Positions 7,071 to 36,626 of a DNA stretch of 36,626 nt are shown piece after piece; the stretch's first letter is position 1; each line of letters starts with the position of its first letter. Source of the stretch: a virus. The DNA lies in IMG/VR virus record IMGVR_UViG_3300028498_000076, positions 1 through 36,626 of that record; one strand, written 5' to 3'. The notes below the pieces were generated by a model. It saw only the letters and a program-made list of their open reading frames with translations. It was not told the DNA's origin and made no database searches. Position numbers and translations under genes: made by a program.

Positions 7071-9032
7071 CTATGCTTGTTTCTTTATTTCCTGAGGGAT
7101 GAACTCGTTATGCATATTGTGAAGGTACGCAAGACTGGTTTCTGTATCAGCTTCATATCTTAGCTGCTCCTGATAGAATTGTAGTCTGACTTTCGCATTT
7201 GTTATAACCTCTGACCAAGTCATGACATACACTTCTATTCCTCCATCAGGGCTTACATGGACACACCCCTTAGGAGAGTTAGCATTATTTGCGGTCATCT
7301 GCGCGATTCTATCAAGCTCATTAGAAATTGCTAGAAACTTCCATTTACAATCAGATTTATTAAATCTTTCGTCTTCACTAACTGCTTGAGCATATCCCAT
7401 TATCTGAGCGATAACAGGACTGTCTATTTTCTTTTTAGGACGTTTTAACTCAACGACCAGATAGTCTTTCTGTCCTGGTCTAACTTCTACCGCTTTTGAT
7501 AGCATGAGATCTAATCTGCCTTGCCTCTCATCATTAATTAAGACATTACTATCATCTTCAGAGCGTTTTCCTAGTTCATTTAGATGTATTTTAAGAGCAT
7601 CTTCAAGGCGCTTTTCGCTAGCAGCTAATGCAAAGTGCTCATCAAAAATCCAAGACTCACTTTCCAATATTTTATGGAGCTGATCTCGCTCTAATAAAGA
7701 GTTTTTATAGTCAAATACTAAGGTATGTAACGACTCTAAGAAATCAAGACGGTCAGCTACAACCTTAGCTGATTTGATAATATGAGATAAACTAGTCTTC
7801 TCTAGAAGAGTAGCGAATTCATCTTGCTCTTCTTTATTCAAATTTAAGACTTCTGTCATAATTGCTTGCATAGCTTGAGGGTTTTCTTCAAGAGCTTGAG
7901 ATAACAACTTAAAGGTAAACTTCTTCGTCTTCTGGTTTGCCTTAGAGAACTTAGGTAAGTTGTCTTCAACTTTAGCTGCAATGATGTCAAATATTTCACG
8001 TTTTGCTATTTCTATAACACCAGGATCATTATTTTCTTGGAAAGGATATATTCCTGAATCCTTCCAACCCTGTAGTCTATGTAGTCTTTCCTTATCTTTT
8101 TTTTCTTTAAAGTGTTCATTTACTTTTTGATAGCAGGCTTCTAGTAAATTTTTACCATCTGTCATGATTTCAATCAACTCTAAACCAGACTCACTATTTA
8201 ACTTAGTAATATAGTCACTACTTAGATAAGCAGAAAATGAATATTCTAAATTTCTCACTTTATAAAGCTCAGGTTTTTGCTCTTGTAAAACAGTACCGTT
8301 GTTCTTACAAAGTAAGATTTTTTTTGACTTAATATTCGACCATTCAACGATCTTAACTGTATGCTTTCCGTCTAAGTTATCTATTGATAACTCATAATCC
8401 TCTATATGTTCTATAGCGTCTTTAGGATTGATAGGATATCCATTTACTATTATTTCGACTTCAGGAAAAGTATATAAGTGGACTGCAAAAGTCTGGGTAA
8501 GCTTTGTTTTTATATCCTCAAAATTATAGGAAGCAACTTTTTTGTTCAGCTCACTGATTGTTATAACCGACTGAGTCTCTTTTACCTTAGATATAGATGG
8601 GTTCGATATATCAAATTTATTCGCATTATCAGAATTCAAGCTTATATCTAGCTTATAAAAACCATCTTTCCTTTGATACACACTTTTCCAATCAACAATC
8701 CTGCCAAGAGAAAAGGACTTAAACCTTCCTGCACCTTTCTGTCCGTGAATAGGTCTGCCACTTTTTGTTTCTGACTTAAAAGCTTTCCACGAGTTACCGA
8801 TATAGATCAAATACGTATTGGCTTGCTCTTCTGTTATACCTTCTCCATTATCTTCTATAGTAATGGACTGGTTGCCCATGTCATTAGACTCAATACGTAC
8901 AGACACACGAGTAGCATCCGCATCTAAACTATTCCAAACAAGCTCTTCGATAGCCTGAAGTGGTGAAGCCATTGATACACGCTTGACATGATCATCAGAC
9001 AAATTAACTTCTCGTGTGTTTAAATCTGACAT
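7071..9032 (-). CDS. GHKL ATPase - PD-(D/E)xK nuclease fusion, candidate defence protein
   Basis: This 653-aa protein runs against the early operon. The N-terminal ~200 residues are a GHKL (Hsp90/MutL/gyrase-type) ATP-binding domain: E29/E30 and N34 in EELVWNSLDADA, the DNGEG loop (61-65) and the glycine-rich lid HGQKGAGRFKS (96-106). A MutL-like transducer region and helical middle follow. The C-terminus (about 450-610) looks like a restriction-type nuclease of the DUF4263/Shedu kind: LESESWIFDEHF (456-467), D508 in GRLDLML, E528 and K530 in VVELKRP, and Q543 before MGYA. Gene DNA is much more AT-rich than the phage genes (one 60-base sample, 8101-8160, has 16 G+C, against 31 in 14281-14340). 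The Shine-Dalgarno sequence is weak. Domains are seen; the defence role is inferred. Confidence 0.8.
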   Translation of the reverse strand: MSDLNTREVNLSDDHVKRVSMASPLQAIEELVWNSLDADATRVSVRIESNDMGNQSITIEDNGEGITEEQANTYLIYIGNSWKAFKSETKSGRPIHGQKGAGRFKSFSLGRIVDWKSVYQRKDGFYKLDISLNSDNANKFDISNPSISKVKETQSVITISELNKKVASYNFEDIKTKLTQTFAVHLYTFPEVEIIVNGYPINPKDAIEHIEDYELSIDNLDGKHTVKIVEWSNIKSKKILLCKNNGTVLQEQKPELYKVRNLEYSFSAYLSSDYITKLNSESGLELIEIMTDGKNLLEACYQKVNEHFKEKKDKERLHRLQGWKDSGIYPFQENNDPGVIEIAKREIFDIIAAKVEDNLPKFSKANQKTKKFTFKLLSQALEENPQAMQAIMTEVLNLNKEEQDEFATLLEKTSLSHIIKSAKVVADRLDFLESLHTLVFDYKNSLLERDQLHKILESESWIFDEHFALAASEKRLEDALKIHLNELGKRSEDDSNVLINDERQGRLDLMLSKAVEVRPGQKDYLVVELKRPKKKIDSPVIAQIMGYAQAVSEDERFNKSDCKWKFLAISNELDRIAQMTANNANSPKGCVHVSPDGGIEVYVMTWSEVITNAKVRLQFYQEQLRYEADTETSLAYLHNMHNEFIPQEIKKQA

Positions 9033-34529: not shown

Positions 34530-34607
34530 AGAAAACGGAGCGGTAATAAAATGTTGGAGCATTATATTACCACTCTTTGACAGACAGTACCTGTCGCAAA
34601 GCCGAGG

Positions 34608-34667
34608 CTCCGTCGCCGTGTACACAGCGAGCGGAGTGTAACACAGAATCTAACGCGATTCTAACGC
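34608..34667 (+). promoter_or_regulatory. GC-rich hairpin and direct repeats upstream of com
   Basis: The 155-base gap after the fibre gene holds a long imperfect hairpin. CTCCG-TCGC (34608-34616) pairs with GCGA (34627-34630) and CGGAG (34632-34636) with one bulge, and GTGTACAC forms the palindromic top. No T-run follows. TCTAACGC is then repeated at 34649-34656 and 34660-34667, 11 bases apart (one helical turn). A weaker GGTAATA/TATTACC pair lies at 34542-34571. No gene is supported here; it is probably the control region of the modification operon. Confidence 0.5.
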
Positions 34668-34684
34668 TAAGCACAGGAAAAATT

Positions 34685-34900
34685 ATGCAGTTTATTTCAT
34701 GCCAAGAGTGTGGCAAAAAACTACTCAAAATCGGCAATTTTGACAAACTATCTATCAAATGTAGCCGTTGTAAGACCATTAACCATTTGAGCGTCCAGAA
34801 CGCCCTATCAGAAGACCACGAGTCTCAAACTAAAGAAGGAAATACTCGTGGCCACACGCAAAAAGAATCCAAAGGTCGATCCCAAAGCGCCTGCTCGTAA
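34685..34900 (+). CDS. com: Com-like zinc-finger translational regulator
   Basis: This 71-aa protein is clearly like Mu Com: CQEC (C6, C9), then FDKLSIKCSRCKTINHL (C26, C29), a four-Cys zinc ribbon, with a polar tail. Mu Com binds mom mRNA and opens a hairpin that hides the mom start. Start set at 34685 by AGGAAA directly upstream; a longer in-frame extension from 34577 has no ribosome site and an unrelated sequence. The end of com overlaps the next gene by 53 bases, and a start-blocking hairpin lies in the overlap. Confidence 0.88.
   Translation: MQFISCQECGKKLLKIGNFDKLSIKCSRCKTINHLSVQNALSEDHESQTKEGNTRGHTQKESKGRSQSACS
34816..34851 (+). promoter_or_regulatory. Start-codon-sequestering hairpin in the com overlap
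   Basis: CCACGAGT (34816-34823) pairs perfectly with ACTCGTGG (34844-34851). The right arm contains the GTG start (34848-34850) of the 57-aa gene; the 20-base loop contains its AAGGA (34835-34839). This matches the logic of the Mu mom translation-inhibitory stem-loop that Com opens. Com binding here is inferred. Confidence 0.7.
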
Positions 34901-35021
34901 CGGCTTTAAATATAAGCCAAAGTTTGGCGTTATCATTAACTGCGATGATGAAACTCATCAAAAGAGCGTCTATGACCAGCTAAATATGCAAGGCTACAGC
35001 CTTAAGGTGGTGGTCGTATGA
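34848..35021 (+). CDS. Small 57-aa protein starting inside com
   Basis: Starts at GTG 34848 (MATRKKNPKV...), with AAGGA 8 bases upstream, and ends in an ATGA overlap with the ABC/GNAT gene. It has a basic N-terminus, then FKYKPKFGVIINCDDETHQK, then YDQLNMQGYSLKVVVV: a small beta-alpha-beta unit with 'PKFGVII.C.DE..Q...Y..L...GY..KVV'. I recall similar short modules beside phage and plasmid DNA-metabolism genes but cannot name a function. It is short and starts at GTG, so simple gene calling misses it. It occupies the place where mom starts in Mu. Confidence 0.7.
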   Translation: MATRKKNPKVDPKAPARNGFKYKPKFGVIINCDDETHQKSVYDQLNMQGYSLKVVVV

Positions 35022-36103
35022 ATATTGATATCAAGCATCAGTGTACCGACCACGACAGTTACCGTGCTGCTCGTATTAAAAGCCTGTTTAACGTTGAGCA
35101 AGGCGCAAACGTTAATATCACTGCCGACCTACCCATTGATGACAACGATTGGCAGATTGGCGTCATAGTGGGCGGCTCTGGTACAGGTAAAACGAGTATC
35201 GGTAAAAAGCTATGGCGCGGCACACCGATCCATAACCCTAAGTGGGATAAAACCCAGCCCATTATTGACCAGATAGCCGTCAATGGCAGCATTGATGATG
35301 CCACCGCATGTCTATCAGCAGTTGGTCTGGGCACTGTACCTGCATGGCTACGACCTTATCATGTACTAAGTAATGGTGAGCAATTTCGCGCTAACCTTGC
35401 ACGTGCGTTAGCTGATGCGCCTGAGCGATTGATTATAGATGAGTTTAGTAGTGTCGTTGATCGTCAGATTGCTTGTATTGGTGCTAATGCTTTTGCAAAG
35501 TCTTGGCGTCGTACAAAAGGTAAGCAGGCAGTACTTTTGACTTGCCATTACGATGTACTTGATTGGCTACAACCTGATTGGGTGTATGACACCTCCAAAG
35601 GTGAATTTACACGGGGGAGTCTTTGGCAACGCCCAGCCATCAACTTTGACATCTACGAGACCAACTGGCAGTTTTGGCACTTATTTGAGCCGCATCACTA
35701 TCTAAAGATACCGCGTATGATTGCCGCTACTAATTACGTGGCAGTAGTCGATGGAGAGCTAGTCGCTCATCTTGCAGTATCAACGCGCCCTGGTCTCATC
35801 GAAGCACGAGCGTGTCGACTGGTAGTAATGCCTGAGTGGCAAGGTGCTGGTATTGGTATGCGCTTTTTAAATCAGGTGTGCGAGCACTGGTTAAATGCTG
35901 AAAATCGTTATAACAAGCCACTCCGCACTATTTTTCATACTAGCCATCCAAACTTAGCAGCAGCTCTAAGACGTGATTCAAAATGGACGCAGATTAGTGG
36001 GCAGCTGCATGGGGGTAAACCATCTAAAAATAGTACTACCACTTATGGGATGCACTTTCGAGCTGTGCAAGGCTTTCGTTATCTAGGGGCTGACTATGAT
36101 TAA
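35018..36103 (+). CDS. ABC-ATPase/GNAT acetyltransferase fusion, predicted DNA-modification enzyme
   Basis: This 361-aa two-domain protein has an N-terminal ABC-type ATPase without membrane spans: Walker A VGGSGTGKTS (51-60), signature VLSNGEQFRANLARAL (116-131), Walker B RLIIDEFSS (137-145, E142) and H-loop LLTCHYDV (H177). The C-terminal GNAT domain includes ATNYVAVVDGELVAHLAVST and the acetyl-CoA loop VVMPEWQGAGIGMRF (269-283). Mu Mom is also a GNAT-type enzyme acting on adenine. Position after com, and coupling to a formyltransferase-fold gene by an 8-base overlap, suggest base modification of phage DNA. Domains are seen; substrate and product unknown. Confidence 0.85.
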   Translation: MNIDIKHQCTDHDSYRAARIKSLFNVEQGANVNITADLPIDDNDWQIGVIVGGSGTGKTSIGKKLWRGTPIHNPKWDKTQPIIDQIAVNGSIDDATACLSAVGLGTVPAWLRPYHVLSNGEQFRANLARALADAPERLIIDEFSSVVDRQIACIGANAFAKSWRRTKGKQAVLLTCHYDVLDWLQPDWVYDTSKGEFTRGSLWQRPAINFDIYETNWQFWHLFEPHHYLKIPRMIAATNYVAVVDGELVAHLAVSTRPGLIEARACRLVVMPEWQGAGIGMRFLNQVCEHWLNAENRYNKPLRTIFHTSHPNLAAALRRDSKWTQISGQLHGGKPSKNSTTTYGMHFRAVQGFRYLGADYD

Positions 36104-36626
36104 AGTGATGATAGTCGGTCAAAAATGGCTAGCTGAGCAGTTGCTTAAGCGTTGTATTGATATGGGTGATATTGAGGTTGTATTGGTATCAGTACCGTGT
36201 TTGGATGATAGAACGGCGATACTGGCTGATAGGTTAGCTATTCCCGTGGCTACTCATGGTAAGACATTAGTAGCAAGTGCGGTACCAGATGGTATCGATG
36301 TAATCTTGATGGCACACGCCTACTGTTTTGTAGGTGCTAATGCTAGAGCTAAGGCTAGACTAGGTGCTATCGGTTATCATCCAAGTCTACTGCCAGCACA
36401 TAAAGGTAAAACCGCCATCGCAGACGCATTTAACGCAGGTGATGCTGTGACAGGTGGCTCTTTATATCAATTAGATGATGGTTGGGACACAGGTATGGTT
36501 ATTGATCAAGCTATTATAAAGATAGATAATAACGATACTATCAAATCAATCTGGCAGGATAAATTAGCACCATTAGGTTTGCTGCTTTTTGAAAATTACT
36601 TAAAGAGTATTAGGTATGATATATAG
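36096..36626 (+). CDS. Formyltransferase-fold protein of the modification operon
   Basis: This 176-aa single-domain protein has the Fmt/PurN fold: MIKVMIVGQKWLAEQLLKRC at the start, IDVILMAHAYCFVGANAR, and the signature GYHPSLLPAHKG (93-104), then DAFNAGDAVTGGSLYQLDDG and WDTGMVI. The catalytic His (H95) and Asp (D131) are present, but the usual Asn of N-x-H-P is Gly93. No C-terminal tRNA- or sugar-binding domain is present. It overlaps the ABC/GNAT gene by 8 bases, so the two are probably made together. Possibly a formyl- or related one-carbon transfer onto a modified base; inference. The window ends at its stop. Confidence 0.85.
   Translation: MIKVMIVGQKWLAEQLLKRCIDMGDIEVVLVSVPCLDDRTAILADRLAIPVATHGKTLVASAVPDGIDVILMAHAYCFVGANARAKARLGAIGYHPSLLPAHKGKTAIADAFNAGDAVTGGSLYQLDDGWDTGMVIDQAIIKIDNNDTIKSIWQDKLAPLGLLLFENYLKSIRYDI

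Follow-up and report, generated by a model that had tools for sequence, protein, structure and literature searches.

A Com-preceded phage operon combining a ParB-like tail protein, an ABC ATPase-GNAT fusion and a formyltransferase-fold protein: a candidate system for DNA base acylation

What could be made, and on which target, by a phage operon that joins a small protein, an ABC ATPase fused to an acetyltransferase (AG) and a formyltransferase-fold protein (FT)? The operon closes IMG/VR record IMGVR_UViG_3300028498_000076 (hereafter the window, i.e. the whole analysed stretch of 36,626 nt, the end of which coincides with the FT stop codon at 36626), and the rest of the window encodes the MuA- and MuB-type transposition proteins, terminase and portal of a Mu-like transposable phage, whose closest genome relatives among the IMG/VR matches listed are Psychrobacter contigs (88-90% identity). 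An earlier reading made from the letters alone (the sequence-only reading) had placed an operon of exactly these three genes at 34848-36626; its coordinates proved exact, and Pfam and PHROGs agree on the gene contents (Table 1). Each of the three predicted ORFs overlaps the next by 4-8 nt, the first of them starting with GTG. As the cassette recurs in phages of Pseudomonas, Porphyromonas and Gordonia, and hundreds of occurrences were counted across IMG/VR contigs and bacterial genomes, we consider that the gene arrangement did not arise by chance. Elsewhere in the window, a reverse-strand ORF of 653 aa (7071-9032, -; phrog_6203, 3.1e-85) is located amid the forward phage operons.

Table 1. Features of the operon and its upstream region (nucleotide positions in the window, or residues of AG)
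Feature	Position	Strand	Basis
Com-like zinc-ribbon translational regulator, two C-x2-C pairs	34685..34900	+	Pfam PF10122, phrog_6417
8-bp mRNA hairpin CCACGAGU...ACUCGUGG	34816..34851	+	RNA fold
57-aa protein, stand-alone ParB-like tail	34848..35021	+	phrog_28816, alignment, tail-motif linkage
AG, ABC ATPase-GNAT fusion, 361 aa, soluble	35018..36103	+	Pfam, PHROGs, motif columns, AlphaFold model
AG Walker A	35171-35194	+	invariant motif columns
AG LSNGEQ signature	35366-35383	+	invariant motif columns
AG Walker B DE	residues 141-142		
AG H-loop	H177		
AG GNAT acyltransferase domain	about residues 211-327		
AG acyl-CoA loop Q275-G-x-G	35840-35851	+	
FT, single-domain formyltransferase fold, 176 aa	36096..36626	+	Pfam PF00551, PHROGs, AlphaFold model

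The cassette had been proposed to stand under a Com-like regulator in the mom position, and a Com gene is indeed present just outside the limits first given for the operon (PF10122 over the cut-off at 2.5e-10 for 34685-34897; phrog_6417, 5.5e-22; gpCom phrog_13819, 3.4e-7), the 3' end of its ORF overlapping the start of the downstream modification-slot gene (the 57-aa ORF) by 53 nt (34848-34900). In a Com-seeded scan (which kept the best 80 matches, so that its figures describe near relatives), about 70 of the loci continue with an N6/N4, C5 or D12 DNA methylase and a few are unresolved; the genes found after Com were N6/N4 methylases (34), C5 (15), D12 (14 and 7) and AG with FT (3). Furthermore, a DNA adenine (Dam-type) methylase directly follows Com in B3, UMP151 and Bise (and, by Pfam, in Mcat1), and PAN70 has Com followed by Mom (PF25680, 2e-77); a separate Com search over 369 genomes gave five matches, too small a number to be informative. 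The position behind Com is one for DNA-modification genes, and because elsewhere it holds DNA methylases or Mom (the strongest argument that we have), we consider with good confidence that the cassette modifies phage DNA. The proposal of DNA modification in the mom position is thus strongly supported by its context, the slot survey having yielded methylases, Mom and the present cassette, and Com is seen to be a regulator of phage DNA-modification genes in general, with mom as one case. Large proteins that have no Pfam match were also seen after Com-like ORFs (L412:2708-3937 and L420:2704-3660), and these represent either false Com matches or further Com-controlled genes.

At the boundary between Com and the cassette, the 3' arm of the hairpin contains the GTG start codon of the 57-aa ORF (34848-34850) and its loop a Shine-Dalgarno-like AAGAAGGAA, making it a candidate for a Com-operated translation switch that resembles the translation-inhibitory stem-loop of Mu mom. 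The same structure occurs in four Psychrobacter relatives (L002, L003, L004 and L095; shuffle p 0.00-0.02); we discarded it as a general feature of Com-bearing cassettes, since it is present in the Psychrobacter group only. Control of the com promoter by Dam, as in Mu, was likewise discarded, there being no GATC within 34530-34690.

The 57-aa protein (phrog_28816, 6.8e-20) aligns as a free-standing version of a tail of approximately 38 aa found at the C-terminus of ParB-like phage proteins (motif [FY]xYKxQ[YF]GVIVxCxDExxQxxxYxxLxxxGYxxKVVxV), the same tail being borne by ParB-like proteins of Gordonia (gp1), Jace (gp85), P335 (Orf23) and Vinitor-27. When a DNA pattern of the tail motif was scanned over IMG/VR, 49 contigs matched, one of which ends before the neighbouring gene; in all of the remaining 48, AG comes directly after the motif. 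Com accompanies the short form of the tail only (64 of 91 short forms as against 0 of 58 of ParB length). We predict from this that the 57-aa protein acts as a DNA-targeting factor, or as an adaptor or partner of AG.

The fusion of an ABC ATPase to an acetyltransferase, as claimed by the sequence-only reading, was recovered with both domains in a single protein (ABC_tran PF00005, 1.8e-5; GNAT PF13508, 5.4e-6; phrog_11143, 8.5e-164). Walker A, signature, Walker B and H-loop are intact, as in the ABC-GNAT system, and the GNAT domain retains its CoA-binding motif. The AlphaFold model (pLDDT 90.5) supports the ABC fold by Foldseek, in which ABC transporter ATPases were the sole matches. We rejected AG as a Mom homologue, as it had no Pfam Mom match and a probability of 0.1% when its profile was compared with PAN70 Mom by hhalign. 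In many phages the ABC and GNAT parts are separate adjacent ORFs (P335 of Lactococcus, L010; Vinitor-27 of Oenococcus, L013; L062-L085), which are sometimes annotated as an iron-siderophore transporter, and in Gordonia phages, Jace, SL25 and others AG adjoins the terminase genes. Moreover, ASCH-domain or ASCH-like proteins are located near ABC-GNAT genes at L013:5130-5522 (Pfam ASCH, 1.9e-4), L072:6050-6433 and L332:5580-5975 (the latter two judged by eye), and might read or erase the modified base.

For the third gene, the predicted formyltransferase fold was borne out by Pfam (Formyl_trans_N PF00551, 1e-17), by PHROGs (phrog_9240, 2.9e-52) and by a confident AlphaFold model (pLDDT 97.5), in which this fold is the sole domain, the protein ending at residue 176. 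The catalytic His95, Ser97 and Asp131 are present, and the position two before the catalytic His, occupied by Asn in the Asn-x-His-Pro-Ser motif of PurN and Fmt, is Gly93. Across 125 FTs, His and Ser are invariant, Asp is kept in 124 of the 124 that have a residue at that column, and the Asn position holds G, A, I, V or S in every case. In profile comparison the hydrolase domain of FDH (ALDH1L1) ranked first (162 bits, as against 108 for Fmt, 79 for ArnA, 68 for PurN and 52 for HypX), as it did in Foldseek, and FDH itself has Ile at the Asn position (I-Y-H-P-S in the alignment). By its His-Ser-Asp triad, its non-Asn residue and its best profile, FT therefore classes with the FDH hydrolase domain, although the C-terminal OB-fold and the fused carrier and ALDH domains of FDH are absent from both its sequence and its model. 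Its PHROG name, PurN-type GAR transformylase, was rejected on account of the missing Asn and of the profile scores. FDH transfers a formyl group onto the thiol of a 4'-phosphopantetheine arm (PMC8748788), and HypX has been proposed to formylate CoA, yielding formyl-CoA (PMC6802093). Because FT lacks the Asn and resembles the FDH domain, a supply of formyl-CoA appears likelier than direct formylation of an amine, and the simplest reading is that the GNAT domain receives its formyl-CoA from FT. The formyl transfer suggested earlier is refined as regards its acceptor: a phosphopantetheine thiol, as predicted from homology and from the CoA enzymes encoded in other AG operons.

Relatives of AG number over 420 in bacterial genomes and at least 580 in IMG/VR contigs; those at least 48% identical to the AG of the window form class 1, and those below this value (mostly 35-40%) class 2. 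FT lies beside AG in 126 of the 143 class-1 loci with downstream room (17 are devoid of it), its start usually overlapping the AG stop, and was found in none of 21 class-2 AG loci. In the reverse direction, an FT-seeded IMG/VR scan (again the best 80, hence near relatives) gave 77 new loci, of which 75 adjoin AG, one is an AG-FT fusion (L184) and one is an incomplete contig. The fusion is weak evidence of linkage, being a single in-frame ORF that looks like the loss of one stop codon. Furthermore, the pairwise distances among AGs are correlated with those among their FTs (Mantel r 0.64 for n=97, the highest value in 999 permutations being 0.26). Co-occurrence of the three genes, which had been named as a check, was accordingly seen (FT with AG in 126/143 and, FT-seeded, in 76/77; tail with AG in 48/48), and homologues in sugar or tRNA modification clusters, which would have spoken against the idea, did not appear among the closest matches: the FT homologues retained by the IMG/VR scan are AG-linked save for one incomplete contig.

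The AG operons that have no FT offer independent support for an acyl-CoA donor, since some carry PanD with a CoA-transferase III-like protein and another a family-I CoA-transferase. PanD and the CoA-transferase III-like protein are invariably paired downstream of AG (11 of 80 class-2 loci, some of which are near-duplicates of one another), and the family-I CoA-transferase overlaps AG in L281 (PF01144, 2e-34); in many class-2 loci a donor gene is lacking altogether. In the closely related class-2 contigs L264-L267, two ABC-GNAT genes apparently flank PanD and CoA-transferase III. Aspartate decarboxylase (PanD) produces beta-alanine, which makes beta-alanyl-CoA a plausible donor in operons of this type. 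We argue that the acyl-CoA with which the GNAT domain would acylate a base (formyl-CoA in the present operon) is probably provided by the third gene.

The absence of FT from 17 of 143 class-1 loci, and of any donor gene from many class-2 ones, means that AG may use host acetyl-CoA and that FT could be a tailoring enzyme. Fmt formylates aminoacyl-tRNA and PurN glycinamide ribonucleotide, i.e. the chemistry of this fold is mostly amine formylation, and FT could by analogy N-formylate the free amine of an amino-acyl group (e.g. glycyl or beta-alanyl) previously attached to the base by AG. Its profile match to Fmt (108 bits), the PanD genes beside class-2 AG (suggestive of a beta-alanine-derived group in relatives) and the dispensability expected of a tailoring step are in line with such a role; we nevertheless regard it as unlikely, given that none of the 125 FTs has the Asn typical of amine formyltransferases, that FDH rather than Fmt is the closest profile, and that FT-bearing operons have no gene making or activating an amino acid. 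Should AG instead draw on host acetyl-CoA, the usual donor of GNAT domains, it would give an N-acetyl base with FT acting in parallel (formylating another base, for example, or shifting folate pools), as the many donor-less loci might suggest; the translational coupling of FT and AG, their near-exclusive co-occurrence and their correlated divergence argue for a single pathway, rendering this very unlikely.

The target itself could be a protein or RNA rather than DNA (in host takeover or anti-defence), as some phage GNATs are stated to acetylate host RNA polymerase (PMC7824862). That DNA methylases and Mom otherwise fill the Com slot, that the tail is elsewhere fused to ParB-like DNA-binding proteins, and that AG stands beside terminase in Gordonia phages, Jace, SL25 and others make such a target quite improbable.

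Restriction-site counts bear on the presumed purpose of the mark. CCGG is absent from the window (0 observed vs 52.8 expected from trinucleotides, 1-36626), GGCC is strongly reduced (24 vs 85 over the same range) and palindromic 6-mers average 0.74 of expectation; in the 60 kb of Psychrobacter host chromosome compared, CCGG counts 34 vs 77 expected and GGCC 91 vs 155. Since CCGG is missing from the phage, at least the restriction directed at it was probably met by the phage lineage through shedding of sites rather than through protection. Protection by modification may therefore be partial, and the loss fits a modification that spares such sites, e.g. one on adenine.

Taken together, these observations are compatible with a Com-controlled acylation of DNA bases, in which the tail protein would guide AG to DNA, ATP-driven dimerisation of the ABC domains on DNA would flip out a base and present it to the GNAT domain, and the latter would use a CoA thioester to acylate an exocyclic amine of the base. 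FT would pass the formyl group of 10-formyl-tetrahydrofolate to the CoA (or pantetheine) thiol, so that an N-formylated base would result in this phage, and the mark would, like that of Mom, shield the phage DNA against restriction. As a whole we hold this chain to be tentative, somewhat more doubtful than probable: FT is devoid of the OB-fold and carrier domains of FDH, homology between AG and Mom could not be detected, CCGG has been lost from the phage, and the start-codon hairpin is confined to Psychrobacter relatives. The broader view, that phage DNA is N-formylated by FT and ABC-GNAT and that interchangeable donor modules serve one conserved writer to give differing acyl marks, we put forward as speculative and rather unlikely. 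If true, related phages would write formyl, beta-alanyl or other acyl marks with the same conserved writer. The present reading turns the decade-old GNAT-ABC prediction into a set of specific mass shifts to seek in cultured phages.

Among known systems, the Com-Mom module of Mu shares with the present operon a Com gene directly upstream with overlapping ORFs, a right-end position in a transposable phage, a GNAT-type acyltransferase and a presumed anti-restriction DNA modification; unlike it, the operon has an AG that is not detectably Mom-homologous, an ABC ATPase, a tail protein and usually FT. FT in turn shares the formyltransferase fold and the conserved His and Asp with the FDH hydrolase and the HypX N-domain, and with FDH (its best sequence and structure match) also the Ser and a non-Asn residue at the Asn position, but is a stand-alone protein of about 176-210 aa with no OB-fold, carrier, ALDH or enoyl-CoA hydratase domain; PurN and Fmt have the fold and the HPSLLP motif in common with it and differ by the catalytic Asn, absent in 125/125 FTs. 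In the literature searched (the originals of Iyer 2013 and Krishnan 2020 being outside its scope), a formyltransferase joined with an ABC-GNAT system was not found. The closest precedent is the ABC-GNAT system of Iyer 2013, which, as restated in PMC7824862, pairs the same core domains as AG and has an uncharacterised acyl base as its predicted product; the computational prediction of DNA modification mentioned in the sequence-only reading was, as far as this restatement goes, right for ABC-GNAT. A role of ABC-GNAT as an acyl-DNA modifier had thus been predicted before, and what is added here is the hypothesis that the third gene provides its acyl-CoA donor.
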